Of a stretch of DNA of 64,000 bases, positions 1,192-16,090 are shown in pieces. Source of the DNA: Thermophilibacter immobilis (lineage in GTDB: Bacteria; Actinomycetota; Coriobacteriia; Coriobacteriales; Atopobiaceae); contig NZ_CP063767.1 of the NCBI RefSeq assembly GCF_015277515.1, positions 1,674,001 to 1,738,000 on the forward strand, given 5' to 3'. The position numbers and the translations under genes are program-made. Every line of letters begins with the position of its first letter. Position 1 is the first letter of the stretch. Below the pieces are notes generated by a model. It had not been told where the DNA came from. It made no database searches and saw only the letters and a program-made list of their open reading frames with translations.

Positions 1192-2310
1192 CTACCCCAG
1201 AGTCCCCATGATGTCACTGATGTCCTCGTCTGCCAGAAGCGAGCCAGACTTGATCTGGTCCGAGTAGTCCGCAATCTTGGCCTGGATGTCAGCAGAAACC
1301 TTGTCGGAAAACGAGCCGAGCATGATGCCACCGTTCTCCATATTGGCCTCTATGACCTTGCCGTCTCCGAACGAGCCCGCCTCGACCTCGTCCATCGCCT
1401 GGCCGATCATCCAGTCAATAACGGTAGACGTCACGACGGTCGGCTGATCGGGGCCAACGATGTCAATTGGCTGGGCGATATCGAAGTGCGTGTCCTCTCC
1501 GGCATGCTCGAGCGCCTGGCGAGCGCCGTCATCGACCACAGAGGCATCCCCCCACATAACGTCAACGTCGTTCGTGCTAATCCACTGCTCGGTCAGCTTG
1601 GTTCCCAGCGACGCATCCGTGAAGCCGGCCTCGAAGTTGTACTGCCCCTCGATGGATGGGTCAATCTTCCTAGCTGCGGCAAGATACGCAGAGAACTTCT
1701 TGAGGGATGACGGGAGCTTCATCCCGCTGATAAACCCAATGTTCTTGGTCTGGGTCATGAGACCAGCGACCACACCGGCAAGAGCTCCGGTCTGCGTGAA
1801 ATCGGGGAGCACCGTCTCGACGTTGGCAAGGCTCTCATAGTCTGTCATCTCGGTGACAGGATCGGTGTTGGTAATCAGGAAGTGAACATTGGGATGACTC
1901 TCAAGAGCGTCAGCCACGACCTCCATCCAGTCCGAGGCGAATTGGTTACCGTTGCCGATGATGAGGTCAACGTCCTGGTCGACATAGGACTGCGCGGCGG
2001 TGGCGGCATCCGCATTGGCCGTGCTCTCCTTGGGCTCGAGCATCTCCCAACCCGAATGACTGTCGATGGCCCTCTTGAGAGATTCGTAGTGGCCTTGATC
2101 CCATCCGCCGTCGGTGACGGTGCCGCTCATGATCATGGCAACCTTATGGCCCGAGGTTTCAGAGCCGGATTCCGAGGATGATGAGTCCCCTCCTGAAGAG
2201 GACCCGCTGCATCCAGCCAGGAAGAGCGCGGCGGCACTGCCAACGCCAAGGCCTACAGCTTGGCGCCTGTCGAGCATGGCATTCGAGAAAAATCTTCTTG
2301 TTCCACTCAT
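1192..2310 (-). CDS. BMP/PnrA-like nucleoside-binding lipoprotein of an ABC transporter
   Basis: Extracellular substrate-binding lipoprotein, 372 aa, that feeds the permeases and ATPase encoded just upstream. The N-terminus has RRQAVGLGVGSAAALF followed by the lipobox LAGC, then a Ser/Gly linker typical of Gram-positive lipoproteins. The mature part starts HKVAMIMSGTVTDGGWDQGHYE, the usual opening of the Bmp family (purine nucleoside receptors such as PnrA). The start was chosen at the ATG at 2310 because AAAGGG lies at good distance. An in-frame ATG 15 nt upstream has no ribosome site. It is the last gene of the ABC set, whereas the binding protein often comes first. Confidence 0.9.
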   Translation of the reverse strand: MSGTRRFFSNAMLDRRQAVGLGVGSAAALFLAGCSGSSSGGDSSSSESGSETSGHKVAMIMSGTVTDGGWDQGHYESLKRAIDSHSGWEMLEPKESTANADAATAAQSYVDQDVDLIIGNGNQFASDWMEVVADALESHPNVHFLITNTDPVTEMTDYESLANVETVLPDFTQTGALAGVVAGLMTQTKNIGFISGMKLPSSLKKFSAYLAAARKIDPSIEGQYNFEAGFTDASLGTKLTEQWISTNDVDVMWGDASVVDDGARQALEHAGEDTHFDIAQPIDIVGPDQPTVVTSTVIDWMIGQAMDEVEAGSFGDGKVIEANMENGGIMLGSFSDKVSADIQAKIADYSDQIKSGSLLADEDISDIMGTLG

Positions 2311-2336
2311 GCTAATCCCTTTCATTCCACGTTTTA

Positions 2337-2409
2337 GAGCATGATTATGTCATGCTCCCGTTACCAAACCTGAAAGAACAACTCACCTCATGCCAGGTGC
2401 CCCCACCTG
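2337..2409 (-). promoter_or_regulatory. Two hairpins between the permease gene and the BMP lipoprotein gene
   Basis: The 145-nt gap holds two perfect stems: CAGGTG/CACCTG with a 4-nt loop (2394-2409) and GAGCATGA/TCATGCTC with a 5-nt loop (2337-2357), the latter about 27 nt before the lipoprotein start. They may separate expression of the binding protein from the permeases, or protect its mRNA. No convincing -35/-10 pair was found. Confidence 0.4.
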
Positions 2410-2455
2410 TACCGAAACGCCACCCATGAGGCCCCCAGCTTCGATCTTCATCGCC

Positions 2456-3388
2456 CTAGCGCTGCTCGCGAAGATAAGGCTGGCCATTGGCCTTGGGGCC
2501 TGCATGCTTGGAGCCGAAGAAAATCAGCGCGATGATGGTGACCAGATAGGGAATCATCTTGAAGAACATCACGGGGGCTGCCTGGAACTGGGCCTGCAGC
2601 GCCACGTTAAGACCATCAAAGAAGCCGAACAATAGGCTGGCACCAAGTGCTCCCACAGCACTCCAGCGGCCAAAGATCACCGTAGCGAGCGCGATGAAAC
2701 CACGTCCCATAACGATGCCATCGGTATAGATCGGCGTGTAGCAGAGCGTGAGAAATGCTCCGCCGGCAGCAGCGAGGGCGCCGCACACGATGCACGCAGC
2801 ATACTTGACTCGAACGACGTTGATACCCAGCGTCTCCGAAGCGTGGGGGTTCTCCCCAACGGAGCGAAATGAGAGGCCCAACCGAAAACGCTTGAAGAAG
2901 AGCGACACCAGGGGCACCATAATGAAGGCGAGGTACGCAAGGGGAGTCTGGGCAAAGAATGCGTCACCCACATAGGGCATAGAGGCGAGACCCGGAATCG
3001 ACAGGCTCGCCATCTGCTCCCCCGTAGCATTGGCCGAGTTCGACCCCACAAAGAGGTTGTATCCGAACAGGGCGATGGCAGGGACAAGAACGTTAATGGC
3101 CATGCCTGTGACAACCTGATCAGCGCAGAGCGTAACCGTGCAGAACGCATAGAGCAAGTTAACGAGCATGCCCGCGAGCATGCCCGCGAGGAGCCCAAGC
3201 CACAGATTGCCGGTAAGCTTTCCCACGGCAAACGCCACGAAGGCTCCGATACCCATGATGCCCTCGAGGCCAATGTTCACAAGACCGGCGCGCTCAGAGA
3301 AGACCTCGCCCAGCGCGGCGAGCAGGATGGGCACCGCGCCCATGGTCGTTGCCCTCAAAATAGTTGGAAGGGTAGCAAAAAAGTCCAT
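2456..3388 (-). CDS. Nucleoside ABC transporter permease (YufQ/NupQ-like)
   Basis: Inner-membrane permease of the BPD_transp_2 (RbsC-like) family, 310 aa. It starts MDFFATLPTILRATTMGAVP and carries the conserved block ERAGLVNIGLEGIMGIGAF, the usual cytoplasmic-loop signature of guanosine/nucleoside uptake systems. A second conserved stretch is SVGENPHASETLGI. Its ATG lies at the stop codon of the other permease gene, so the two are translationally coupled. With the ATPase and the BMP lipoprotein it forms a complete purine-nucleoside importer. Substrate is inferred from family and from the purine gene context. Confidence 0.9.
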   Translation of the reverse strand: MDFFATLPTILRATTMGAVPILLAALGEVFSERAGLVNIGLEGIMGIGAFVAFAVGKLTGNLWLGLLAGMLAGMLVNLLYAFCTVTLCADQVVTGMAINVLVPAIALFGYNLFVGSNSANATGEQMASLSIPGLASMPYVGDAFFAQTPLAYLAFIMVPLVSLFFKRFRLGLSFRSVGENPHASETLGINVVRVKYAACIVCGALAAAGGAFLTLCYTPIYTDGIVMGRGFIALATVIFGRWSAVGALGASLLFGFFDGLNVALQAQFQAAPVMFFKMIPYLVTIIALIFFGSKHAGPKANGQPYLREQR

Positions 3389-4479
3389 TATGCGCTCGCC
3401 TCAGCTTTCTTGAACTTAGGACCTAAGTTTGCTAGATACGCCTTGATCTTGGGCAGCTTGACCATAGCCATGCCAGCCACTGCAAAGATGATGATGAGCC
3501 CACGAATGATGTCCACTATAGCCGTGGGAACCCCGATGACGCTCTGCATCATCGTGCCACCTGTGGAGAGGACGCCAAACAGCAGCGCCACCACGATGGA
3601 TGCAAGGGGATTGAGCTGGGCTATCAACGCAATAGCGACCCCGTCGAAACCAAAACCCGACCCGAAGCCATCGGCGAGCCTGAAGGGAGTCTTGCCCAGA
3701 AACTCAACAGCCCCACCGAGACCGGCGATGACTCCCGACAGGATGAACGCAAGGAGCACAAGGCGCTTGACGGAAAAGCCGTTAACACGGGAGGCTATGG
3801 GATTCATGCCCACGGCGCGAATCTTGAAGCCAAAGGATGTGCGGAAGATTACATACCAGAGAAACACGCCCAGGAGGACCGCCAGGACGACGCCGACGTG
3901 GGTGCCCAGCACCTCGGGCAACCGAGCAGACTGAGGAACGGCAACGGTCTTGGGAAGCCCCTGGTCGGAATAGGCGTTCTTGAAAATGTACTCCATGAAG
4001 TACAGGGCGATGTAATTGAGCATGATGGTCGTGATCATCTCATTGAGACCACGCGTTATCTTCATGACACCCGGTATGAGCCCCCAGATCCCACCGGCGA
4101 CAATGCCGGCGACCAAGCCTAGAGAGAGCGCTCCCGGCCCCTCGACGCCCAATCCCAAAATGACGGCTGCAGACGCACAGCCCCCCATGATGAACTGGCC
4201 CTCCCCGCCGAGGTTGTAGACGCCACACTTATACGCAAATACCGCGCAGAGGCTTGTGAATATAAGTGGGCACGCTCGCTCAAGTGTCTTGCCAATCTTG
4301 GAAACGTCAGAGAGCGAACCTTGAAGCATGGCCCCGTAGCCCACGAGCGGGTTCTTCCCCAGACAGGCGATTATAATTGCTCCCACGAGCAAGGCGAGGA
4401 ATACAGAAACGATGGGCGTGAGAACCGCAAGTCGCCGTTCGTTTCTTTCCTCCAAGCTAAGCGCTTCTTTCTTGGACAC
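3388..4479 (-). CDS. Nucleoside ABC transporter permease (YufP/NupP-like)
   Basis: Second permease of the same importer, 363 aa. After a charged N-terminus (MSKKEALSLEERNERR) come hydrophobic membrane segments and the motif YKCGVYNLGGEGQFIMGGC, the counterpart of the VNIGLEG block in its partner. GLNEMITTIMLNYIALY is also typical of this subfamily. It follows the ATPase gene by 13 nt and overlaps the next permease start. Confidence 0.9.
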   Translation of the reverse strand: MSKKEALSLEERNERRLAVLTPIVSVFLALLVGAIIIACLGKNPLVGYGAMLQGSLSDVSKIGKTLERACPLIFTSLCAVFAYKCGVYNLGGEGQFIMGGCASAAVILGLGVEGPGALSLGLVAGIVAGGIWGLIPGVMKITRGLNEMITTIMLNYIALYFMEYIFKNAYSDQGLPKTVAVPQSARLPEVLGTHVGVVLAVLLGVFLWYVIFRTSFGFKIRAVGMNPIASRVNGFSVKRLVLLAFILSGVIAGLGGAVEFLGKTPFRLADGFGSGFGFDGVAIALIAQLNPLASIVVALLFGVLSTGGTMMQSVIGVPTAIVDIIRGLIIIFAVAGMAMVKLPKIKAYLANLGPKFKKAEASA

Positions 4480-4492
4480 TGCTCATTCCCTT

Positions 4493-5983
4493 CTATTTTC
4501 CTGCCATGGCAAGCGAGATCTCCTTGATGGGAGGGTTCTCGCCCCGATACGTCCCCATAATCTGACCCTCGAACAGAACCGCGATACGATCAGAGAGCTT
4601 GAGAACCTCATCAAAGTCTGCGGAAATCAGTAGTACGGCGCAGCCAGCGTCGCGCTGCGCCACAATCTGATTGTGAATGAACTCGGTGGCTCCGATATCC
4701 AGACCACGCGTAGGGTACACGGCTACGAGAAGTTTGGGATGAGCAGCGAGCTCGCGGGCGAGAATGACCTTCTGCTGGTTGCCGCCCGAGAGACTCCGTG
4801 CCGTCTGGTTGACCGACGTGCAACGGATGTCGTTTTCATCCTTGAGGACCTCGGCGTACTCCTTGATGGAACTCGTCTTAAGCCACGCACCGTGACCGTA
4901 CGAGAACCGGTCGCTCTGCGTCTGCTTGAGAACGAGGTTCTCCGCGATGGTCATGTCTCCGACGAGACCCATCTTGTTGCGGTCCTCGGGAATGTTGCCC
5001 AATCCAGCACCGATAAAAGCGCTCGGCGAGAACAATGCGATCTCTGAGCCGTCGGGGCCCACAACCCGACCGGTCTCGGGCTTGATAAGACCGGTCACCA
5101 GTTCGGCAAGGGGCGTTTGGCCATTTCCGTCGATTCCCGCCACGCCCAAAATTTCTCCCTCATGGATGGCAAGGGAGACGTCCTTGAGCCCACCATGCTT
5201 TACCTCAGGTCGATAAGAGACGCTCTTGAGCTCAAGAGCAGTCTTGTCCGTCGTCGAGACCTTCTCGTAGATGCTCTCAGTGAACTTCTGCCCGATCATG
5301 AGGTCAGCGAGCTCTTGTTCAGTGGTGTCAGCCAGATCTAGCGTCTCAATCGACTCGCCACGGCGCAGTACGGTCACCCGGTTGGATATTCTCATGACTT
5401 CGCGCATCTTGTGGGAGATGAAGATGATCGCCTTGCCCTCTGCGATGAGGGCACTCATGATATCGAAGAGCCCCTCGACCTCGAGGTCCGTGAGAACGGC
5501 CGTGGGCTCGTCGAGAATGAGCAAATCGGCACCGCGGAAGAGGACCTTCATGATCTCGACCCTCTGCTGCATGCCTATTGACATGTCTGCGACACGCTTG
5601 TCCAGATCGATCTCAAGGCCGTAGCGGTCCATTATCTCTTTGATGGAGGCTCGGTCATCCGCCTCCTTGAGCAGCGGCGAGGCGTGGCGCTTGTCGCCGA
5701 GGATGATGTTCTCGAGGCCCGTCATGTCCTCTATAAGCATGAAGTGCTGGTGCACCATGCCGATGCCATGCTGCACGGCAACCCTGGGCGAAACGATCTG
5801 GACCTCCTGGCCGTTCATGACTATCTTTCCGCCATCCGGCTGGTACAGCCCGATGAGAACGTTCATGAGCGTCGACTTGCCCGCTCCGTTCTCGCCCAAG
5901 AGCGTATGGACCTCGCCACGTCTGACATCAATGTTCACGTTCCGGTTCGCATAGAACGAACCAAAGCATTTGCTGATGTTCTC
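4493..5983 (-). CDS. Nucleoside ABC transporter ATP-binding protein (double cassette)
   Basis: Cytoplasmic ATPase with two ABC cassettes in one chain, as in sugar and nucleoside importers. Cassette 1 has Walker A GENGAGKST, signature MSIGMQQRVEI and Walker B LLILDEPTAVL. Cassette 2 has a degenerate Walker A (GIDGNGQTPL) and signature LSGGNQQKVILARE, as usual for this family. The start is uncertain. The ATG at 5983 gives the family-typical MENISKCFGSFYANRN (496 aa). The reading frame stays open to a GTG at 6046, which would add 21 residues, and neither has a clearly better ribosome site. It lies about 100 nt after xdhD on the same strand, so it is probably read from the purine-oxidation operon. 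Confidence 0.9.
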   Translation of the reverse strand, partial: ENISKCFGSFYANRNVNIDVRRGEVHTLLGENGAGKSTLMNVLIGLYQPDGGKIVMNGQEVQIVSPRVAVQHGIGMVHQHFMLIEDMTGLENIILGDKRHASPLLKEADDRASIKEIMDRYGLEIDLDKRVADMSIGMQQRVEIMKVLFRGADLLILDEPTAVLTDLEVEGLFDIMSALIAEGKAIIFISHKMREVMRISNRVTVLRRGESIETLDLADTTEQELADLMIGQKFTESIYEKVSTTDKTALELKSVSYRPEVKHGGLKDVSLAIHEGEILGVAGIDGNGQTPLAELVTGLIKPETGRVVGPDGSEIALFSPSAFIGAGLGNIPEDRNKMGLVGDMTIAENLVLKQTQSDRFSYGHGAWLKTSSIKEYAEVLKDENDIRCTSVNQTARSLSGGNQQKVILARELAAHPKLLVAVYPTRGLDIGATEFIHNQIVAQRDAGCAVLLISADFDEVLKLSDRIAVLFEGQIMGTYRGENPPIKEISLAMAGK

Positions 5984-6087
5984 CATCTCCAGCAACTCGC
6001 CCACATCTACCACCTTCCATGCGTGAATCCGTCCGAATGAGCTCACACTTACCAGTTCACGGCCTCTGGGGCCACCTCCCCAGGACC

Positions 6088-8814
6088 CTAGCGCCTGCGG
6101 TAGTACGTGTCCTCAAGCGGGAGCTTGGTGCGCAGCCGCCCGTCCAGGGCGCGATAGGCGTTCTGGATGGCCGGCGCCGTTGGGATGGTGGCGATCTCGC
6201 CGATGCCCTTGCCGCCGTAGGCCACGAGCAGGGGGTTGTCCTTCTCGACGTAGATCGCGTGGATGTTGGGGGTGTCCGGCGCGCGGAAGAGCCCGAGCGT
6301 GCCGTACTTGACCTTGGGCACGCTCTTCTCGAGCGGGAAGTCCTCGGTGAGCGCGTAGCCCATGCCCATGAGCACGCCACCCTCAATCTGGCCCTGGATG
6401 GCAATCGGGTTGATCACCTTGCCAGAGTCGTGAGCCGCATAGATCTCCTTGACGCTGCCGTCGTCGTTGAGGATGACGAGGTGGGTGGCGTAGGCGTAGG
6501 CGATGTGGCTCTTGGGGTTGGGGACGTCGGCGCCCAGCTTGTCGGTAAGCTCGAGGTACTCGTAGGAGAAGGAGCAGCCCTCGAGGACCGCAAGCGCCGA
6601 GACGGGATCCTTGGCGTGCACCGAGGCATCCGGGCCCTCATAGGGGGTCCCGTCGTCGTAGCTGATCTTGAAGCCGTCGCCGCGGGCGACCACGGGCGCT
6701 ATGGAGGGTTCCTTGCCCGCCTCCACGTCGAGCATTGCGTCGCGCAGCAGAAACGCCGCGCCGCGCACGGCCTCGCCAGTGACGAGGGTCTGACGCGAGC
6801 CAGAGGTGGTGCCGGAGTCGGGCGCGCTCTCGGTGGAGCACTCGCCGTTGACCACATAGGTGCGGGTGAGGCCCGTGGCCTCGCAGACGTCCTGGATGAA
6901 GACCGTGTTGCAGCCCTGGCCGATGTCGGAGGTGGCAGAGTAGACCACGGCGCGCCCGCCCTCCACGACAATCTTGCAGCGGCCTGCGTCGGGCAGGCCC
7001 ACGCCCACGCCGGCGTTCTTGAGCGCGCAGGCGAGGCCCGCGTGGCCGGGGTTGGCGTCGTAGGGCTCCTTGACGGCGAGCAGGGTCTCCTTGAGGGCCG
7101 TGGACTGGTCGGCGATCTGCCCGTTGGGCAGGACGTCGCCCGGCTCGATGGCGTTTCTGAACCGGATCTCCCATGGGCTGATGCCCACCTTGTCGGCGAG
7201 AAGGTCGATGAGGCTCTCGAGCGCGAACTCGGTCTGGCACACGCCAAAGCCGCGGAAGGCGCCGCCGGGGACGTTGTTGGTGTAGTAGCCAACGCCGCGG
7301 ATGTCCGTGTTCTGGTACTTGTAGGGACCCACCGAGTGCGTGCAGGCGCGCTCGAGAACGGGGCCGGTTAACGAGGCGTAGGCACCGCCGTCAAAGTAGA
7401 CGTCGCAGTCCAGGCCCGTGAACATGCCGTCCTCGTCACAGCCCAGGGTGAAGGTGCCCTCCATCGCGTGGCGCTTGGGATGGAAGTTAATCGACTCCTG
7501 GCGCGTGAGCTTGACCTTGACGGTGCGCCCGAGCTTGTAGGCAGCCAGGCAGGCGAGGTGCTGAACGGAGACGTCCTCCTTGCCGCCAAAGCCGCCGCCC
7601 ACGAGCATGGTCTCCACGACCACGCGATCGGGGGTCTTGTCCCACCCGAACATATGGGCGACCTCCTTGCGGGTGTCGTAGGCGCCCTGGTCGGTTGAGC
7701 AGACCTTGACACCGTCCTTGTAGGGGAAGGCGACCGCGCACTCGGGCTCCAGGAAGGCATGCTCCGTAAAGGGCGTCGAGAAGGACTCCGTGACGGTGTA
7801 GGCGGAGCTAGCGAGGGCCTCGGCGGGGTTGCCGCGCACGATGTGACGGCTCTGACAGATGTTGCCGGCGGCCTCGGCGTGCACGAGCGGGGCACCCTCG
7901 GCACGGGCCGCGGCGATGCTGCTGACGGGTTCAAGCACCTCATACTCCACCCTGACAAGCTTCTTGGCCTTCTCCAGGACCTCGGGCGTCTCGGCAACCA
8001 CGAGGCACAGGGCGTCACCCATGTCGCGCGTGATGCCACCCCCGGCGATGAAAACGTCCCAGTCCTGTTGAATGTGGCCCACCTTGTTAACGGGAACGTC
8101 CTCGGCGAGAAGGACCCCCACGACGCCGGGCAGCGCACGTGCCTTCTCGACATCGATAGAGAGCACGCGGGCGCGCGGGTAACGCGAGCGCACCGCCGAG
8201 CCGTAAGCCATGTCAGGGAAGTCGCGCTCGTCGAGGTCATCAGGGTACTTTCCGTAGCCCAGGACCTTCGGGCGCACGTCCACCCGAAAGGCATGGGCAC
8301 CCACGCCGTAGTCATCACCTCGCTCGAGCTTGGGGTCGATCTGGGCCTCGCCGCGTAGAATCCTGGCGACCAGGAGAACCCCCTCGATGATCTTCTTGTA
8401 GCCGGTGCAGCGGCAGATGTTGCCGCGAATGGCCTTCTTGATCTGGTCCTCTGTGGGGTCGGGGTTACGATGGAGAAGGGCGGCCGCGCTCATGACCATG
8501 CCCGGGGTGCAAAATCCGCACTGGACCGCACCCACCGAGCCGAAGGCGTAGACGAAGGCCTCCTGCTCGTCCTTGGGCAGGCCCTCGACGGTCACTACGT
8601 CACGACCGTTCGCGAGCTTGGTCGTGAGGACGCACGACTTGATGGCGCGCCCGTCCACGATTACGGTACAGGTGCCACAGGCGCCCTCGGAGCAGCCGTC
8701 CTTGACGCTCAGGAGCTTGAGGTCGTCGCGCAGGTAGCGCAAAAGCGGCTTGCTCTCAGATGTGACGCACTCCTCGCCGTTCACGATGAAGCGATATTCC
8801 TCGGTTGCTGCCAT
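6088..8814 (-). CDS. xdhD: XdhD-type molybdenum hydroxylase (purine/hypoxanthine dehydrogenase), FeS and Mo domains fused
   Basis: Oxidises a purine ring by hydroxylation at a molybdopterin centre, 908 aa. Residues about 1-160 are the two [2Fe-2S] domains, with Cys41, 46, 49 and 61 (plant-type) and Cys99, 102, 134 and 136 (CGFC...CRC). The rest is the molybdopterin-binding large subunit, with VGGGFGGKED, GGAFRGFGVCQ and, near the end, GGKGIGEIATIPTAPA, which holds the catalytic Glu. There is no FAD domain and no separate FAD-subunit gene next to it. This matches E. coli XdhD/YgfN and the proteins annotated as selenium-dependent xanthine dehydrogenase. No in-frame UGA is present, so any selenium would be a labile cofactor. 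GGGAGAGGGC precedes the ATG. Confidence 0.9.
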   Translation of the reverse strand: MAATEEYRFIVNGEECVTSESKPLLRYLRDDLKLLSVKDGCSEGACGTCTVIVDGRAIKSCVLTTKLANGRDVVTVEGLPKDEQEAFVYAFGSVGAVQCGFCTPGMVMSAAALLHRNPDPTEDQIKKAIRGNICRCTGYKKIIEGVLLVARILRGEAQIDPKLERGDDYGVGAHAFRVDVRPKVLGYGKYPDDLDERDFPDMAYGSAVRSRYPRARVLSIDVEKARALPGVVGVLLAEDVPVNKVGHIQQDWDVFIAGGGITRDMGDALCLVVAETPEVLEKAKKLVRVEYEVLEPVSSIAAARAEGAPLVHAEAAGNICQSRHIVRGNPAEALASSAYTVTESFSTPFTEHAFLEPECAVAFPYKDGVKVCSTDQGAYDTRKEVAHMFGWDKTPDRVVVETMLVGGGFGGKEDVSVQHLACLAAYKLGRTVKVKLTRQESINFHPKRHAMEGTFTLGCDEDGMFTGLDCDVYFDGGAYASLTGPVLERACTHSVGPYKYQNTDIRGVGYYTNNVPGGAFRGFGVCQTEFALESLIDLLADKVGISPWEIRFRNAIEPGDVLPNGQIADQSTALKETLLAVKEPYDANPGHAGLACALKNAGVGVGLPDAGRCKIVVEGGRAVVYSATSDIGQGCNTVFIQDVCEATGLTRTYVVNGECSTESAPDSGTTSGSRQTLVTGEAVRGAAFLLRDAMLDVEAGKEPSIAPVVARGDGFKISYDDGTPYEGPDASVHAKDPVSALAVLEGCSFSYEYLELTDKLGADVPNPKSHIAYAYATHLVILNDDGSVKEIYAAHDSGKVINPIAIQGQIEGGVLMGMGYALTEDFPLEKSVPKVKYGTLGLFRAPDTPNIHAIYVEKDNPLLVAYGGKGIGEIATIPTAPAIQNAYRALDGRLRTKLPLEDTYYRRR

Positions 8815-8823
8815 GCCCTCTCC

Positions 8824-9348
8824 CTAGTTCTGCGCGACGATGCCGAACACGTCTGATATGGCACCACGCGGGCATTTGGTCGCGCACATCCCGCAGGCGA
8901 TACAGGCGTCGTAGTCCACGTGGGCGTGGTTGTTCTCGAGGCGCATGGCGTCAGCAGGGCACACGCGCACGCAGATGCCGCAGTTGATGCAGCTCGTCGT
9001 GCACTTCTGCCGCGACTCCTTGGCCACGGACGTATTCGCGCAGCGCACGCGGATGGTACGATCGGGCGTGACCATCTCAATTATGCCCTGCGGACACTGT
9101 CGGGCGCACAGGCCGCAACCCGCACACGCGTCGCGGTCAACAAAGGCCACGCCGGTCTTCGTGTTCATATGTATGGCGTCGAAGCGGCACGCCTCGACGC
9201 AGGCGCCACAAGCCGTGCACCCGTCTTCGCACACGATTCCGCCCTCGCAGGCGGGGCTGCCCCCGCCGCAGCGCACGAAGGCGCTCGGGCGGGGCGTGCG
9301 CCGCCGCGCACCCATGTTTTTCTTGCTTATGCCTTGAGCCTTGCTCAT
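8824..9348 (-). CDS. Polyferredoxin (RnfB-like 4Fe-4S protein)
   Basis: Small electron carrier, 174 aa, encoded between ygfK and xdhD. It has four Cys-rich motifs: CTACGACVEAC, CAGCGLCARQCP, CINCGICVRVCP and CIACGMCATKCP, enough for up to four [4Fe-4S] clusters. An N-terminal CGGGSPACEGG resembles the segment before the ferredoxin part of RnfB-like proteins. No signal peptide or membrane span is visible, so it is probably cytoplasmic. Strong ribosome site AAGGGGAGACC. Its stop is 9 nt before xdhD. Context suggests it carries electrons from the molybdenum enzyme to YgfK; that is inference. Confidence 0.88.
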   Translation of the reverse strand: MSKAQGISKKNMGARRRTPRPSAFVRCGGGSPACEGGIVCEDGCTACGACVEACRFDAIHMNTKTGVAFVDRDACAGCGLCARQCPQGIIEMVTPDRTIRVRCANTSVAKESRQKCTTSCINCGICVRVCPADAMRLENNHAHVDYDACIACGMCATKCPRGAISDVFGIVAQN

Positions 9349-9390
9349 GGTCTCCCCTTGTATGACGCTGAGTACAACGCCTGTATATTG

Positions 9391-9423
9391 GCATGGGCAG
9401 ATCCAGCGCAGATCTGCCCATGC
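9391..9423 (-). other. Intercistronic 13-bp hairpin between ygfK and the polyferredoxin gene
   Basis: GCATGGGCAGATC (9391-9403) and its exact complement (9411-9423) with a 7-nt loop, in the 130-nt gap between the ygfK stop and the ferredoxin start. No U-run follows on the minus strand, so it looks more like an mRNA-processing or stability hairpin than a terminator. Confidence 0.5.
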
Positions 9424-9478
9424 TCTCCACGCCTCCTTCCCCCTCGGGAGAAGACGCCCTTACCGTGTGAGTCGATCG

Positions 9479-12400
9479 CTAGGCAACCTCAGGGGCAGTC
9501 ACATCCTTGAGCAGGTAGGCATAGGAGTCGCGCACCGCGACGATCGTGAGCCGCACGTCGTCGGGCAGGCCGCACGACGCGTCGCTCACGTCGTAGGTGC
9601 CCTCGGAGCCTGCCAGGCGCACGCGGAAGGTTCCGCCAGCAAGCGGCAGGAAGCCGCGGTTCTCGCTCGCGTCCATGTCCTCGGCGCTCCAGAAGACCGT
9701 GAGCTTATCCTTGTAGGGACGCCCCGACCACGGGCAGAACACGGCGCAGTTGCCGCACTCGTTGCACATGCCGTCAATGTGGACGATCTGCTCCTGTGCG
9801 AGGCCGTCCACCTTGACCGACACGTTGGCGCGGTTGGGGCAGACGTCGCAGCAGACCTCGCAAATCGTGGCGCATCCCAGGCAGCGCGAGGTGCTGCAGG
9901 CGGCCACGTCCAGGCAGACGTCACCCTTGCGGGCCTTGACGGCGTCCTCCTTGCCGTGACGGACGTTCTGGTCCACGACGTCCTCGAAGTCGGCGCCCAC
10001 CATGGCCCGCGCGACGGCCTGCGCGTCGGCAACGGCCTCGACGAAGGTCGCGGGCCCGCGGTGGCAGTCGCCGGCAGCCCAGACGCCGTCCACGCCGGTG
10101 GCGCAGCCCGCCGCGGGACGGCCGCGGTGGTCGAGCTCGACACCGGCCTGCTTGTAGAGACCGTCCTTGATGCGCTCGCCCACGGCACAGATCACGGCGG
10201 TGGCGGGCAGCTCGACCCTCTCGCCGATGGCGACAACGCTGCGGCGGCCGGTCGCGTCGGGCTCGCCGAGCTCCATGCGCTCGCAGCTCAGGACGCCGTC
10301 GGCCAGGCCCTTGGGGGCCAAGAGCTCGCAGAACTCGACGCCCTCGGCGAGCGCCTCGTCGAGCTCGTACTCCTCGGCGGGCATGTAGCGGCGCGTGCGG
10401 CGATAGGCGATGCGGACGCTCTCGACGCCCGGCAGGCGCTCTGCGACGCGGGCGCAGTCCATGGCGGTGTTGCCGCCGCCGATGACCACGATGTCTGAGC
10501 CGAGCGAGGAGAGGTCGTCGCCGCGCTTGGCCGCGCACAGGAACTCGAGCGCGTCGAGCTCGTCGCCGTACTCCAGGGCCTTGCGGCCGGGTGCCCAGGC
10601 GCCGATGCACATGACGACGTCGGTGTAGCCTGCGGCCTTGAGCTCGGCAACGTCGGTGACCTCGTGGTTGTACTCCACCTTGGCGCCGTACGACAGGCAC
10701 AGGTCGATGTCGGCCTGGATGTCGGCGTCGGGGATGCGGAACTCCGGAATGGTCTGGCGCGGAACGCCGCCGAGCTTGTTGGTTGCCTCGAAGATCGTGG
10801 CCTCGGCGCCGGCGCGCGTCAGGAAGAACGCCGTGGACAGGCCCGCCGCTCCGCCGCCCACGATGGCGACCTTCTTGCCGCGGGCGCCGGCGATGGGTGC
10901 CGGCGTGGCGGCCTTGATCTGCGCGAGAACCTCGTCGAAGCCGCCCTTGGCCGCGATGAGCTTGGACTCGCGGATGCGCGCGCCCTCGGGCTCGTAGAAG
11001 GAGCGCTCGCAGTTGACGCCGCAGGGGTGCGGGCAGAGGTTGCCCGTGATGTGCGGCAGGGCGTTGCGCTCCATGACGATGTTGAGCGCGTCAACGAGGC
11101 GACCCTCGTCAACGGCAGAAAGGTAGGCGGGGATGTCCTGCTGGATCGGGCAGCCGGTGCGGCAGGGAGCCGTGAAGCAGCTCATGAGCGGCAGCTCGGC
11201 ATCGATCTTGTGGGACTTGGCGGGCTTGATGGGCTTGTGGTAGATCGGGTTGGCCGTGATGGCCTCCTCGAGCGCGGCCAGGGCGGCCGCGTCCACCTTC
11301 TCGACGCGCTCGGAGCCGGCGAGAAGACCCGCGATCTGGCTGAAGCGCTCGTAGCCGCCAGGCTTCAGGACGTTGGTGGCCATGGTGATCGGCCAGATGC
11401 CCGCGGCGTAGAGCTCGCGGATGTTATGGGCGTCGGCGCCGCCCGAGTAGGAGATGCGCAGCGTGCCCTCGAACTCGGCGGCCACGCGACGGGCCAGCTC
11501 GACGGAGAGCGGCAGGAGCGAGCGGCCGGACATGTACATCTCCTCGCTCGGCAGCTCCTCGCGCGTCACGTCGACGGGGAAGGTGTTGGTGAGCTTGATG
11601 CCAAAGGAGAGGCCCTTCTGCGCGCACAGCTCGCTCAGGCGATGGAACATCGGCACGGCGTCGGCCCACTGGAGGTCCTCGAGGAAGTGCTTGTCGTCAA
11701 AGACGATGTAGTCAAAGCCGAGCTCGTCCAGGCGCGCTCGGGCGTAGTCATAGCCCAGAAGCGTCGGGTTGCACTTGACATAGGTGTTGACGTGCTTCTC
11801 GGTGATGAGGTAGGTGGCGATGCGTTCGATCTCGTCGGGCGGGCAGCCGTGAAGCGTGGACTCGGTGACCGACGAGGACACCTGGGGCGAGACCGACTCC
11901 ACGAAGGCCCTGTCCACGTTCTGGAAGCGGTCGAGGTTGGCGAGCGCCCAGCTGCGGCACTCGGCCCAGACCTCGGTGCCCGAGGCGTCCTTCATGCCCT
12001 CGATGTAGGCGTCCACCTTGGGGCTCTGGATGCCCTCGAGGCTATAGCCCACGCTCATGTTGAAGACGAAGCCGTCTGGGTCGCCCAGGCCGAGCTCGCG
12101 GGCGAGCAGCTTGCAGGCCCACCAGGCCTTGACGTACTCGGCGTGCGCCTGGGGAACCGTGAGCTCGGTGGACCACTCGCAGTTGTAGCACTCGTCCTCA
12201 GAGGCGATGCACGGCTTGTTGACGCAGGCGGCGAGCTCCGCGCCATCCATGATCTGGACGGTCTTGAGCTCGAAGAAGCGCGAGCCCGAGACGTACGACG
12301 CAATGATGTTCTGCGCGAGCTGCGTGTTGGGGCCAGCAGCTGGGCCAAACGGGGCCTCGATGCGCCCGTCGAAGATGGGGTCGGAGCCGCCCTCGTGGCG

Positions 12401-12502
12401 CACGAGCTTGCGCACGCCAAAGACGGACCCGTGCTGGGCGTCCTCGGTCAGGCTCCAATCCATGATCTGGGCGAACGGAATCGGTCGCATGATGTCGCTC
12501 AT
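9479..12502 (-). CDS. ygfK: YgfK, putative selenate-reductase-like FeS flavoprotein of the purine cluster
   Basis: Large cytoplasmic iron-sulfur flavoprotein, 1007 aa, close to the length of E. coli YgfK. The N-terminal part (to about 430) is a barrel-like region related to dihydropyrimidine/dihydroorotate dehydrogenases. From about 439 comes the glutamate-synthase small-subunit module: CFTAPCRTGCPIQQD and NLCPHPCGVNCE for FeS clusters, KVAIVGGGAAG (about 541) for FAD and DIVVIGGGNTAMDCARVAE (about 669) for NAD(P)H. The C-terminus has two ferredoxin motifs, CLGCATICEVCCDVCP (about 873) and CNECGNCAVFCP (about 911). The ATG at 12502 follows GAGAGGAG; an upstream in-frame start lacks one. Despite its name, its true reaction is not settled. 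Linkage to xdhD and ssnA points to anaerobic purine degradation. Confidence 0.92.
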   Translation of the reverse strand: MSDIMRPIPFAQIMDWSLTEDAQHGSVFGVRKLVRHEGGSDPIFDGRIEAPFGPAAGPNTQLAQNIIASYVSGSRFFELKTVQIMDGAELAACVNKPCIASEDECYNCEWSTELTVPQAHAEYVKAWWACKLLARELGLGDPDGFVFNMSVGYSLEGIQSPKVDAYIEGMKDASGTEVWAECRSWALANLDRFQNVDRAFVESVSPQVSSSVTESTLHGCPPDEIERIATYLITEKHVNTYVKCNPTLLGYDYARARLDELGFDYIVFDDKHFLEDLQWADAVPMFHRLSELCAQKGLSFGIKLTNTFPVDVTREELPSEEMYMSGRSLLPLSVELARRVAAEFEGTLRISYSGGADAHNIRELYAAGIWPITMATNVLKPGGYERFSQIAGLLAGSERVEKVDAAALAALEEAITANPIYHKPIKPAKSHKIDAELPLMSCFTAPCRTGCPIQQDIPAYLSAVDEGRLVDALNIVMERNALPHITGNLCPHPCGVNCERSFYEPEGARIRESKLIAAKGGFDEVLAQIKAATPAPIAGARGKKVAIVGGGAAGLSTAFFLTRAGAEATIFEATNKLGGVPRQTIPEFRIPDADIQADIDLCLSYGAKVEYNHEVTDVAELKAAGYTDVVMCIGAWAPGRKALEYGDELDALEFLCAAKRGDDLSSLGSDIVVIGGGNTAMDCARVAERLPGVESVRIAYRRTRRYMPAEEYELDEALAEGVEFCELLAPKGLADGVLSCERMELGEPDATGRRSVVAIGERVELPATAVICAVGERIKDGLYKQAGVELDHRGRPAAGCATGVDGVWAAGDCHRGPATFVEAVADAQAVARAMVGADFEDVVDQNVRHGKEDAVKARKGDVCLDVAACSTSRCLGCATICEVCCDVCPNRANVSVKVDGLAQEQIVHIDGMCNECGNCAVFCPWSGRPYKDKLTVFWSAEDMDASENRGFLPLAGGTFRVRLAGSEGTYDVSDASCGLPDDVRLTIVAVRDSYAYLLKDVTAPEVA

Positions 12503-12520: not shown

Positions 12521-12593
12521 GTCCCCGAGACCGCGCGGGGACACCTTTGTGGAAGCGCGCGCAAGGCGCCCTGCGGCCCCGCGGAGGCCGCGT
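12521..12593 (-). other. Two GC-rich hairpins between ssnA and ygfK
   Basis: The 131-nt gap holds GTCCCCG/CGGGGAC (12521-12542, 8-nt loop) and GCGGCC/GGCCGC (12575-12593, 7-nt loop). No U-tracts. The first lies just upstream of the ygfK ribosome site and could affect its translation. Confidence 0.35.
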
Positions 12594-12633: not shown

Positions 12634-13986
12634 TTAGTAGGTCCTGTCGTTGAGCGTGCCCCAGAGCTTCTTTGCCTGCTCGAGGGTCCACGCGTCGATG
12701 CGCTCCTCGTCGAAGGCAACGAACTCGCGGTCCCGGTAGAGGACCTTGCCGTTGACGATGGTGGTACGGCAGTCCCTGCCCTCCATGCCAAAGAGCATGT
12801 GGCCGTCAATGTTCTCGTCGGAGAACGGCGTGAAGGCCGGGTAGTCCATGACGATGACGTCGGCGGCGTCACCGGGCTTGAGCGCGCCGATGCTGCGCCC
12901 GAAGAAGTGCGTGGCAATCTCGGGGTTGTTCTTGAACAGCATCGTCATGTCCTCGCCCCAGGCCACGTTGGGCATCGCGGCGTTGTGGCGCTGCATGACG
13001 ATGAAGGTCTTGAGGCTCTCCAGGATGTCATGGGTGTAGGCGTCGGTGCCCATGCCCACCTCGATGCCGCGACGGAAGAACTCGAGCACGGGGGCGCAGC
13101 CCACGGCGTTGTTCATGTTGGACTGCGGGTTGTTGATGACGCGTGTGCCCGTCTCCTTGATCATCTCCATCTCGGCCGGCGAGGCGTGGATGCAGTGGAC
13201 GAGCAGCGTGTCCGGGCCGAGGAGGCCGTGCTGCAGCAGACGCTCGACCGGGGCGATGCCGCCGCGGTTCTGACGGCTGTCCATGAGGTCGTTCAGGCCC
13301 TCGTGCACGTGGATGTGGTAGCCCGTGAGGCCGTTGTTGGCCTCGGCCATCTTGTCCATCGTCTCGTCGGACATGGTGAAGGTGGCATGACCCCCGAACA
13401 GACCGGAGATCATGTGGTTGCCCCGCTCGTTCTGCTCGTGGGCCCAGCGGGCGAAGTCCGCGTTCTCCTGGATGGCCTGGTCGCACTTCTCCTGGCCGTC
13501 ACGGTCGCTGACCTCGTAGCACAGGCTCGCACGGATGCCCGTCTCCTCCACGACGTCCCTGATGGCGAAGAGGCTGCCCGGGACCTCCTTGTAGCTCGCG
13601 TGATGGTCGAAGATCGTGGTGACGCCGTTGCGCAGAGACTCGAGAATCGTGGGGTAGGCCGAGGCGCGCGTGCCATCGAGCGTGAGGTTGCGGTCGATCT
13701 TCCACCACTGCTGCTCGAGGTTCTCGAGGAAGTTGGTGGGGTTGCAGCCCTTGATGGACAGGCCGCGCGCCAGGCCCGAGTAGATGTGGGTGTGGCAGTT
13801 CACCAGGCCGGGCATGATAACGCCGCCGTGGGCGTCGACGCGCTCGGCGTCCGCATACTTCTCGCGCAGCACGGCCGCCGGGCCGACCTCCTTGATCGTG
13901 TCGCCGTCAAGGGCGACGGAACCGTCGGCAAGGTAGGGGTTGTTGGGGTCTCGCGTGATGACGTGGCCGTTCTCGACGAGCAGCAT
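12634..13986 (-). CDS. ssnA: SsnA, putative amidohydrolase/chlorohydrolase
   Basis: Metal-dependent hydrolase of the amidohydrolase superfamily, 450 aa, close to guanine deaminase and related ring deaminases. Visible metal ligands and motifs are GGVIMPGLVNCHTHIYSG (HxH), FDHHASYKE, HIHVHEG, LVHCIHAS and, near residue 310, MGTDAYTHDI with the metal-binding Asp. In E. coli and in gut anaerobes ssnA sits beside ygfK and xdhD. It probably hydrolyses a purine ring or a ring-opening product, but the substrate is not proven. The ATG follows GGGAGCC. It is separated from the upstream permease by 325 nt, so it may have its own promoter. Confidence 0.9.
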   Translation of the reverse strand: MLLVENGHVITRDPNNPYLADGSVALDGDTIKEVGPAAVLREKYADAERVDAHGGVIMPGLVNCHTHIYSGLARGLSIKGCNPTNFLENLEQQWWKIDRNLTLDGTRASAYPTILESLRNGVTTIFDHHASYKEVPGSLFAIRDVVEETGIRASLCYEVSDRDGQEKCDQAIQENADFARWAHEQNERGNHMISGLFGGHATFTMSDETMDKMAEANNGLTGYHIHVHEGLNDLMDSRQNRGGIAPVERLLQHGLLGPDTLLVHCIHASPAEMEMIKETGTRVINNPQSNMNNAVGCAPVLEFFRRGIEVGMGTDAYTHDILESLKTFIVMQRHNAAMPNVAWGEDMTMLFKNNPEIATHFFGRSIGALKPGDAADVIVMDYPAFTPFSDENIDGHMLFGMEGRDCRTTIVNGKVLYRDREFVAFDEERIDAWTLEQAKKLWGTLNDRTY

Positions 13987-14311: not shown

Positions 14312-15805
14312 CTACTGGTTTCCCTGTGATTGCCCCTCTGACTGAATCTTATGAGTTTCGCTGTCCGCTGATGCCGACGAGTCATTTCCCGCTGAGGCGC
14401 CCGCACTCTCTGCCTCAACGCCATTCTCAATTTCTTCAGCTTCCGTAGAGCCCGTACCCCTTCGAAGATCAACATTGGTATACGGATTCTCAGGTGGGAG
14501 TACGTTATTCAGGATGATGGCCATTATGGCACAGGGTGTAATGGCGCTCGTCCCAAAGATGGTGTTGATCCAATCGGGCATGCCCGGACCCATAAGAGAA
14601 CCACTCACCTCTGCGATACCCAATCCAAAAGCCACCGAGATGCCAAAAACCGTACATGCGCGCGGGGTAAGGCCGTCCTTAACAAGGATGCGAATACCAT
14701 TCAGAGTAATGGTACCAAACACACTGATGGTGGCACCACCAATGACCGGCTGAGGAATCATGGTGAGGACTGCGGAGAGCTTGGGCATGAGACCCGCCGC
14801 AGCAAACACAAGGCTGGCTGTGGCAAACACCCAGCGGTTAATGACGCGTGTGGAGACAATAATGCCCACATTCTGACCAAAGGCGGAGGTGGGAAGACCC
14901 CCGAACACCGATGAGAGCATGCTTACCAGCCCCTGGGCCTTCAAGGCTCCACCCAGTTCCTTCTCAGTTGGCATGCGGTTCATGCTGCCCATCGTGGCTG
15001 CTGACAAATCTCCAATAAGCTGCACGTTCACCATGACGTACACGACCGCGAGTGTGAGACAGGCCGCTGGATTGAACACAATCTTGAAGGGGAAAAGCTC
15101 TGGAGGCGCGAACCACCCCGCAGAAACTACCCCAGAGGCGTTGACCATGCCGAAGGGCAGCGAAATGAGTACCCCGACAAGCATGCCGAAGAAGATGCCC
15201 CCTAGCTTGAGAATCCCATGGCCAAAGTTCGAAAAGCCAAAAACCACGGCAAACGTGATGAGGCCTACGATCCAGTTTTGGACACTGCCAAAGTTTTCTG
15301 TTCCCTGCCCGCCCGCGAGATACTTAATCGCCGTCGGATATAGGGAAACGCCAATGGTAAAGATTACGGTACCGGTAACAAGAGAGGGAAAGAGCCACTT
15401 TACCTTTGGGTAGAGCATGCCAAACAAAATAGCCACAGCGCCTCCGACAAGCTCTGCGCCCAGAAGCGTCTCAAATCCAAATTCTATTCCCACGGCCTGA
15501 AACGCCGGCAGAAAGGCAAAAGACACCCCTGTAAGAATAGGCAAGCCGCTGCCGATTTTTCCGAAAAGGGGGAACTGCTGAAGAATCGTGTCGATGGCCG
15601 AGAGAATGAGCGCCACCTGAATAATGGCCGTCTCCTGCTCCTCGGTAAAGTTACATACGCCCGCAATGATGATGGCTGGAGCGATAACGCCTGCAAATGA
15701 GGCCAATACGTGCTGCAACGCACAGGGTAGTATCTCGGCGAGGCGAGGCATCCCCCTTCGTGTGAATAAAAGTGAAGAAGCTCTCCCGGAGTCCATCTCT
15801 GCCAT
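14312..15805 (-). CDS. NCS2 family xanthine/urate-type permease
   Basis: Membrane transporter for an oxidised purine, 497 aa, nucleobase:cation symporter-2 family. Typical features are ALQHVLASFAGVIAPAII near the N-terminus, the conserved GLPTSAFGQNVGIIVSTRVI, and FGTITLNGIRILVKDG towards the end. It ends in a long hydrophilic Ser/Glu/Gln-rich tail. Resemblance is to the UacT/PbuX branch, so xanthine or urate is the likely substrate, which fits the xdhD-ssnA-ygfK genes downstream. The ATG at 15805 was preferred because GAGAGG lies 6-7 nt before it; an ATG at 15826 has no such site. Codon use looks less GC-rich than in the neighbouring housekeeping genes. Confidence 0.9.
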   Translation of the reverse strand: MAEMDSGRASSLLFTRRGMPRLAEILPCALQHVLASFAGVIAPAIIIAGVCNFTEEQETAIIQVALILSAIDTILQQFPLFGKIGSGLPILTGVSFAFLPAFQAVGIEFGFETLLGAELVGGAVAILFGMLYPKVKWLFPSLVTGTVIFTIGVSLYPTAIKYLAGGQGTENFGSVQNWIVGLITFAVVFGFSNFGHGILKLGGIFFGMLVGVLISLPFGMVNASGVVSAGWFAPPELFPFKIVFNPAACLTLAVVYVMVNVQLIGDLSAATMGSMNRMPTEKELGGALKAQGLVSMLSSVFGGLPTSAFGQNVGIIVSTRVINRWVFATASLVFAAAGLMPKLSAVLTMIPQPVIGGATISVFGTITLNGIRILVKDGLTPRACTVFGISVAFGLGIAEVSGSLMGPGMPDWINTIFGTSAITPCAIMAIILNNVLPPENPYTNVDLRRGTGSTEAEEIENGVEAESAGASAGNDSSASADSETHKIQSEGQSQGNQ

Positions 15806-16090
15806 GCGTATCCTCTCCGCAACCATACCGTGATGTTACTATCTTACGTTTAAATCAAACTAATTGTATGGACGAAAAAAAATCTGTTAGACGGTCGTTT
15901 CTCAGGGGTGAGCGGCAGCGTCAACAAATCGATCATGGAGATCTTTTTATTGCACATTTTTATTTTATAGTCATGTCAAAGGCATCGCTTTTCTCGATTA
16001 AAACGCTTTAGATCACATTTTTACGAAAAATCGTCTCTCCTTGGTGTCCTAACAAAAAGTATGAGGGAGTTTATACTGTGAGATTACGCG

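Follow-up and report, generated by a model that had tools for sequence, protein, structure and literature searches.

In a 64,000-nucleotide stretch of the Thermophilibacter immobilis genome (the window, bases 1674001-1738000 of a single 2.16-Mb contig), the minus-strand genes under study code for a molybdenum hydroxylase without FAD domain, a ferredoxin with four [4Fe-4S] motifs and a YgfK protein. The pathway to which they belong, anaerobic uric acid breakdown, is known; the new feature is a dedicated, linked ferredoxin in place of an FAD subunit. According to the interpretation that we favour and consider probable, this ferredoxin is the electron donor to the hydroxylase in urate reduction, and YgfK is a substrate reductase. 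The ferredoxin, whose partnership and direction of electron transfer we infer, is a good candidate for the donor that is still missing from this pathway. The features concerned are the following (window coordinates):

6088..8814, minus strand: FAD-less molybdenum hydroxylase of the selenium-dependent xanthine dehydrogenase (XDH) family, 908 amino acids (aa), two [2Fe-2S] domains and a Mo domain; candidate urate reductase (TIGR03311, Pfam domains, alignment of E413/R489 with bovine XDH)
8824..9348, minus strand: dedicated ferredoxin, 174 aa, four [4Fe-4S] motifs; candidate direct donor of the hydroxylase (motifs, neighbourhood counts)
8839..8853, minus strand: C-terminal tail D-V-F-G-I of the ferredoxin, residues 166-170; possible docking site (signature of linked ferredoxins, held-out test)
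9479..12502, minus strand: YgfK with N-terminal FMN barrel, GltD-like FAD/NAD(P)H module and C-terminal 4Fe-4S domain; candidate yanthine reductase (TIGR03315, Fer4_20, Pyr_redox_2, structure matches)

The hydroxylase and the question of its FAD subunit

An earlier note, made from the bare sequence, had described a 908-aa hydroxylase with two [2Fe-2S] domains, a Mo domain and no FAD domain, and the family models agreed. Pfam recognised Fer2_2, Ald_Xan_dh_C, MoCoBD_1 and MoCoBD_2 and found no PF00941 (FAD domain), while the first [2Fe-2S] domain was visible in NCBIfam matches from residue 7. The XdhD-type label of that note had to be given up: the protein reached 1154 bits against the selenium-dependent XDH model TIGR03311 (cut-off 830.45) and only 211 bits against the XdhD model TIGR03313 (cut-off 1101.9). 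The molybdopterin aldehyde oxidoreductase model NF045668 was likewise ruled out (416 bits, cut-off 1100). The closest solved structures were the aldehyde oxidoreductases 1sij and 1dgj (907 aa), which we take to be Desulfovibrio enzymes without FAD.

The YgfM-type FAD partner expected of an XdhD was not found in the genome either, the single PF00941 gene (G000:C1:1669405-1669908) being the xdhB of a complete xdhCBA set in which every subunit exceeded its cut-off; beside this set lies a guanine-deaminase-like gene scoring below its own cut-off. The earlier note had also stated that no FAD-subunit gene lies nearby. This holds within the window, and has to be qualified by the presence of this xdhB 4.1 kb before the window start, although within an xdhABC set of its own. 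An orphan ygfM/xdhB homologue, for which the note had proposed a search, was absent from the genome.

The same question was then put to the class (Coriobacteriia, 296 genomes searched), where TIGR03311 was above cut-off in 82 genomes. Ferredoxin, PF00941 and YgfK were sought in 80 of 85 candidate genomes, namely 79 over the cut-off and G279, whose match is split over contigs (G173, G204 and G211, with partial matches, as well as G191 and G230 were left out). Two genomes carried two hydroxylase loci, giving 82 loci. A PF00941 gene occurred within 5 kb on the contig at 0 of the 68 loci with adjacent ferredoxin versus 7 of the 14 loci without (Fisher p 9e-7, kinship ignored; distances concern same-contig genes only, and some contigs are short). 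It was entirely missing from three of the 80 genomes, all with hydroxylase and YgfK (G077, G156 and G164). The nearby FAD genes were rejected as dedicated partners, since all five inspected among these seven cases (G178 and the other G099 locus left out) sit with the Mo and Fe-S genes of another hydroxylase. The hydroxylase has no dedicated FAD partner gene, and because it lacks an FAD subunit it cannot draw electrons from NAD(P)H by itself.

Alternatively, the hydroxylase might work as an ordinary NAD-linked XDH by borrowing XdhB from the XdhABC next to it, with the ferredoxin as an accessory. The xdhB gene does lie on the same strand at a distance of about 10 kb, and in G113 and G099 an FAD gene, beside its own Mo/Fe-S genes, ends about 0.45 kb from the hydroxylase. 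Yet the three genomes named above and a Vagococcus genome (see below) have the hydroxylase and no PF00941 gene at all, and in the five cases examined the FAD genes keep to their own Mo and Fe-S partners. We consider such borrowing highly unlikely.

Hydroxylases varied in length. A stretch of ~45 residues (around 704-745) was inserted in the window protein and its close class relatives and absent in L004, L006 and L009; it was rejected as a ferredoxin-correlated trait since L014 and L021 display it without ferredoxin. The ferredoxin-linked hydroxylases L042 and L132 were only 852 and 859 aa long. Those of L049 and L051 (961 and 978 aa) were enlarged between their [2Fe-2S] domain and the core of the Mo domain by additional stretches, which six relatives aligned alongside did not show; one of these stretches holds a CxxC in both proteins. 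A fused ferredoxin, sought in these two long hydroxylases, was not found.

The linked ferredoxin

Between hydroxylase and ygfK the earlier note had correctly placed a four-motif ferredoxin; its C-x2-C-x2-C-x3-C motifs start at residues 44, 75, 120 and 149. It scored below the models for RnfB (TIGR01944, 47.9 bits, cut-off 68.7), NF041836 (91.2 bits, cut-off 445) and VhuB polyferredoxin (65.5 bits, cut-off 600). YgfS was rejected as its counterpart in Escherichia coli, with a phmmer E of 0.0019 in a 22-protein set, weaker than YgfT (7.6e-6).

A co-occurrence of this ferredoxin with FAD-less hydroxylases, suggested as a check in the earlier note, was clearly observed: 68 of the 82 class loci carry it immediately upstream in the same orientation. 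At 67 of them the ferredoxin match is 27-91 bases from the hydroxylase match, the 68th (G242) carrying a short form below the search threshold. By match span, where the open reading frame (ORF) was unread, 41 linked ferredoxins were long and 27 short (G242 included); the long form has three or four strict motifs, G147 being long by match span with an ORF of two motifs. Across the 296 genomes, a threshold of 1e-25 yielded 56 matches. Those scoring above 100 bits, 43 in number and in ORFs of at most 248 aa, all adjoin a hydroxylase, while none of the other 13 (90.9-99.5 bits, ORFs of 271-417 aa) does; the 100-bit line was drawn after viewing the list, and ORF length splits the two groups better.

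Outside the class the association was rarer and took two gene orders. In Clostridia (391 genomes, the class of Lachnospiraceae genome G308), where the hydroxylase exceeded its cut-off in 20 genomes, 92 genomes matched the ferredoxin at 1e-28, in 93 places. Two of these (G561 and G308) are short ORFs beside a hydroxylase, 90 are ORFs of at least 263 aa, and in G549 a short ORF, readable in part, lies beside rnf-like genes (judged by eye). Among the matches listed, there were 21 named relatives (L034-L053 and L063, all but L050 and L053 at least 48% identical); in L042 and L051 the ferredoxin is upstream of the hydroxylase, in L046 and L047 (Lachnospiraceae) downstream, L046 being the same gene of the same genome as L133. 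In a quick-method tree of 64 hydroxylases (13 duplicates or near-duplicates left out; L050, L053, L118, L136 and L149 missed by the ORF filter), the downstream pair was separate from the upstream group. No close YgfK was seen near the hydroxylase in the available stretches of L042 and L047, which, together with the downstream position in L046 and L047, indicates that the ferredoxin goes with the hydroxylase. Taken together, these data support a ferredoxin-hydroxylase linkage conserved far beyond chance.

Short and long ferredoxins share not only their position, but also a tail. A D-x-x-G-[ILV] pattern shortly after the last cluster was present in all 25 linked ferredoxins first examined, short and long, and in none of the eight RnfB-type relatives first examined. 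The initial pattern, D-x-x-G-I, had matched 14 of 18 long forms and all 7 short ones and was widened from those same tails; with the pattern then fixed, a held-out test recovered it in all 20 additional linked ferredoxins and in none of 20 additional unlinked ones (the held-out rows are kin of the first set, hence not independent). In total, the tail occurred in 45 of 45 linked ferredoxins and was absent from 28 of 28 unlinked relatives, one of which (L201) is cut by a contig end.

YgfK and its shortened forms

The YgfK of the window matched TIGR03315 over model positions 1-1012 of 1012 (1247 bits, cut-off 835.3). Its longest ORF begins at 12544 (GTG), and the MSDIMRP start at 12502 agrees with relatives. 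The FAD, NAD(P)H and FeS parts reported earlier were recovered as Fer4_20, Pyr_redox_2 and a C-terminal Cys-rich domain; Pfam gave no match at 1e-5 for residues 1-450. The FAD module matched structures of Nfn, glutamate synthase and dihydropyrimidine dehydrogenase (DPD), with electron-bifurcating Nfn on top, whereas the full-length structure model was mediocre (predicted local distance difference test, pLDDT, 68). YgfK occurred in all 80 genomes, over cut-off in 77 (partial matches in G279, G089 and G144), and was present in the 1.5 kb flanking the hydroxylase at 26 of the 30 class loci examined.

At least two of the 80 genomes, from two genera, carry a shortened YgfK (G018 and G242; L147 and L148). 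Both lack residues 451-860, which make up the FAD and NAD(P)H module, without a change of frame, and the FMN barrel joins the C-terminal 4Fe-4S domain directly. The model of this form was better (pLDDT 78). Among the best 50 Foldseek matches listed, dihydroorotate dehydrogenase (DHODH) predominated (E from 2e-6, TM-score by target about 0.5), and the single DPD match fitted poorly (rmsd 22.9). Judging from this model, YgfK is predicted to hold an FMN barrel of the DHODH/DPD kind.

Both genomes retain a short, two-motif ferredoxin and the FAD-less hydroxylase. Since neither reductase there has a flavin module for NAD(P)H, they fit a ferredoxin-driven pathway, and their ferredoxin cannot depend on YgfK as an NAD(P)H gate. 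A module-less YgfK would, on the other hand, need an Fe-S donor of its own, and for the clostridial UacX a ferredoxin has been proposed by Li et al. (PMC12507026, cited here and below from its accessible parts). The ferredoxin might then mainly serve the FMN barrel of YgfK, its adjacency to the hydroxylase reflecting operon order only. This is very unlikely in our view: the ferredoxin gene is 9 bp from the hydroxylase gene (27-91 bp between matches in the class) versus 130 bp from ygfK, in L046 and L047 it is found on the downstream side of the hydroxylase, and L042 and L047 show no close YgfK in the stretches available.

Proposed direction of electron flow

The chemistry of relatives has been described. 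In E. coli, XdhD-YgfM converts urate to yanthine (2,8-dioxopurine) with NADH, after which YgfK and SsnA dearomatise and open yanthine, dihydroyanthine being formed first (Li et al. 2025, PMC12507026). YgfK was assayed there, coupled with SsnA, as a yanthine reductase, in line with the suggestion of the earlier note that YgfK is something other than a selenate reductase. The same source proposes ferredoxin as donor for the FAD-less Clostridioides difficile XdhD and UacX, and, according to a commentary, the FAD-less XdhAC still awaits the discovery of its physiological donor (Percudani 2025, PMC12990295).

On this basis, the three genes would supply the enzymes for both reductions in the anaerobic degradation of uric acid, together with their electron carrier. 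The FAD-less hydroxylase would reduce uric acid to yanthine. The ferredoxin would dock on it, perhaps through the conserved C-terminal tail, and low-potential electrons would pass from ferredoxin over the two [2Fe-2S] clusters to Mo. The FMN barrel of YgfK would then be the site of yanthine reduction, supplied with electrons from NAD(P)H through the FAD module of YgfK and possibly also by the same ferredoxin. The ferredoxin may be charged by cellular enzymes such as pyruvate:ferredoxin oxidoreductase (PFOR), which is present in the genome, or by YgfK.

An extension of this scheme would make the ferredoxin a common hub docking on both reductases, with uric acid breakdown powered mainly by ferredoxin. 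In its boldest form YgfK, with its FAD module resembling that of Nfn, would bifurcate NADPH electrons within one complex, one serving its FMN in yanthine reduction and the other the ferredoxin in urate reduction. Genera without the FAD module of YgfK would then be a purely ferredoxin-driven end state. We regard this hub as quite unlikely.

The favoured reading, with the ferredoxin as donor for urate reduction, also has several observations against it. The hydroxylase was only 27% identical to E. coli XdhD, the alignment left a gap where XdhD has Glu606, and its E413 and R489 aligned with E802 and R880 of bovine XDH, positions that are Gln and Asn in E. coli XdhD; its reaction can therefore not simply be carried over from XdhD. 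E802 and R880 are, we assume, active-site residues of animal XDH. The ferredoxin cleared a general family, TIGR02179 (PorD/KorD delta; 64.7 bits, cut-off 60.05), a 78-position two-cluster model whose best stretch was residues 118-165, no single stretch passing 1e-10. Beside it, however, ygfK and the hydroxylase gene were found and no 2-oxoacid oxidoreductase genes, the PFOR of the genome being distant and of the fused type (TIGR02176). Furthermore, an adjacent ferredoxin was lacking at 14 of the 82 class loci (12 also scanned for Cys motifs; G156 and the other G099 locus were judged solely by the distance separating the YgfK match from the hydroxylase match, about 100 and 170 bases), at 18 of the 20 Clostridia loci (present at two, flanks of at most 1.5 kb) and, among the matches listed, in 17 of the 21 named relatives. 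The three class genomes without PF00941 were among those lacking it. A universal need for the ferredoxin is weakened by these three genomes, and the Clostridia loci and named relatives imply that a dedicated ferredoxin is not essential to the enzyme family in general. Finally, the presumably related Enterococcus faecalis EF2570 is cited as a xanthine dehydrogenase (PMC11448449, accessible part).

That class and Clostridia loci manage without it would also suit a ferredoxin that does not contact the hydroxylase directly and acts in maturation or as a general redox protein. We hold this to be most unlikely, as the long form was found only beside the hydroxylase (43 of 43), in two gene orders and with a common tail.

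The citation of EF2570 and the two conserved active-site residues rather speak for a hydroxylase that oxidises purine, as the earlier note had supposed, with electrons running from Mo over [2Fe-2S] and ferredoxin to YgfK and reducing NAD(P) or the substrate of YgfK. The FAD, NAD(P)H and Fe-S modules of YgfK and its proximity at most class loci examined are compatible with this route, and coupling purine oxidation to the reduction of yanthine by YgfK would make economical use of redox equivalents. Yet the published reaction at the equivalent place of the cluster is reductive and consumes electrons (PMC12507026; PMC12990295), for xanthine oxidation the genome has a distinct XdhABC, complete with FAD subunit, and the ferredoxin persists beside a YgfK without NAD(P)H module and where no close YgfK was seen. 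The oxidative direction is less likely than the reductive one, and as an explanation of this locus we find it unlikely. From the earlier interpretation, the FAD-less hydroxylase with a conserved, linked ferredoxin was thus retained, and the oxidative direction with its route over YgfK to nicotinamide was not.

The linked ferredoxin family, with its signature and with genomes that have or lack it, makes the donor question directly testable. The degradation of uric acid by gut bacteria is relevant to gout, and bacteria engineered for uricolysis (PMC12507026) need each enzyme to be paired with its electron donor.

Gene cluster and other observations

Two further genes of the locus belong with the pathway:

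12634..13986, minus strand: SsnA amidohydrolase, the following step of the pathway (NF005540, 606 bits, cut-off 444)
14312..15826, minus strand: NCS2 permease of xanthine/urate type (Xan_ur_permease; matched by E. coli xanQ and uacT at 30-31%)

Transcription proceeds from the permease gene through ssnA, ygfK and the ferredoxin gene to the hydroxylase gene, all on the minus strand, with 131 bases between ssnA and ygfK, 130 between ygfK and the ferredoxin gene and 9 before the hydroxylase gene. E. coli uric-acid-cluster queries found ygeX, ygeY, ygeW, yqeA, hyuA, xdhABC, guaD, ssnA, ygfK and permeases at about 1653.7-1689.8 kb of the same contig. With ssnA, ygfK, hyuA, ygeW, yqeA, ygeY and ygeX together, this is the published reductive uric acid gene cluster.

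Downstream of the hydroxylase (1192-6046) are ATP-binding cassette (ABC) transporter genes with a PnrA-like binding protein. Two alike sets of ABC ATPase and permease genes (window 1192-6046 and L002 2757-6519) flank xdhABC and the hydroxylase genes on the same strand, the PnrA-like protein being identified for the window set only.

The genome encodes selD (G000:C1:1632024-1632947, 375.7 bits), which was above cut-off in 42 of 44 genomes tested. Since it adjoins selA, selB and betaine reductase genes, it need not serve the hydroxylase. This selD (L218, outside the window, near betaine/glycine reductase genes) displays an in-frame TGA, and its product may contain selenocysteine. E. coli YqeB and YqeC queries, limited to L218, L115, L002, L116 and the window, gave no match there. 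A second XDH-like paralogue with one in-frame TAG or TAA was recorded in G021, G024, G115, G147 and G041; these may be pseudogenes or have another cause.

Comparison with known systems

No description of the ferredoxin link was found in the literature, in a partial search that left most subscription journals outside. The nearest characterised system, E. coli XdhD-YgfM-YgfK-SsnA, displays the same pathway neighbours and a fused [2Fe-2S] and Mo chain, with YgfK 41% and SsnA 32% identical to those of the window. In contrast, it uses an FAD subunit, YgfM, and NADH (PMC12507026), where a linked ferredoxin and a hydroxylase of another family are found here.

Clostridial systems come closer in lacking this subunit. 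Clostridium sporogenes XdhAC (Liu et al. 2025, as reported in PMC12990295) converts urate to 2,8-dioxopurine with an artificial donor; it is likened here by description, and that commentary mentions no linked ferredoxin. The C. difficile XdhD/UacX system has no YgfM, like the present one, and its UacX has FMN and no FAD domain, like the shortened YgfK. It differs in that no linked ferredoxin gene is named in the accessible parts of PMC12507026, and UacX, a DHO_dh protein (PF01180), is likened to YgfK by description.

Other relatives appear to be surrounded by different carriers. In Vagococcus acidifermentans (L036, 14518-20329), an Nfn-like pair (PyrK-like and GltD-like) and a PFOR lie downstream of the selenium-dependent XDH; a search of this genome found no PF00941 and no match to the window ferredoxin. 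A flavodoxin expected at L036:13354-13815 from the E. faecalis gene table was rejected since no Pfam match was obtained; in L133 and L156, related stretches were seen to overlap with matches to E. coli YqeB. EF2570 of E. faecalis is presumably a TIGR03311 member. Like the window hydroxylase, it is a single chain with [2Fe-2S] and Mo domains and has ygfK, ssnA and ygeWXY nearby (PMC2432076 and PMC2276186, accessible parts), and table 1 of PMC2276186 has no xdhB or ygfM entry for its cluster. Its neighbours, as far as the accessible part of PMC2432076 goes, are a flavodoxin, GltD, a dihydroorotate-dehydrogenase electron transfer subunit and PFOR, without polyferredoxin. Both neighbourhoods suggest low-potential one-electron donors for FAD-less relatives.

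The aldehyde oxidoreductases 1sij and 1dgj, the best structure matches, aligned with the hydroxylase over its [2Fe-2S] and Mo parts; they oxidise aldehydes, however, and 1sij has Phe and Leu at the positions of E413 and R489. The partner of the FAD-less aldehyde oxidoreductase is a flavodoxin. 4-Hydroxybenzoyl-CoA reductase, in turn, has an FAD subunit. It is a reductase of the XDH family that accepts reduced ferredoxin (PMC12771579, accessible part), although its substrate is not that of the hydroxylase.

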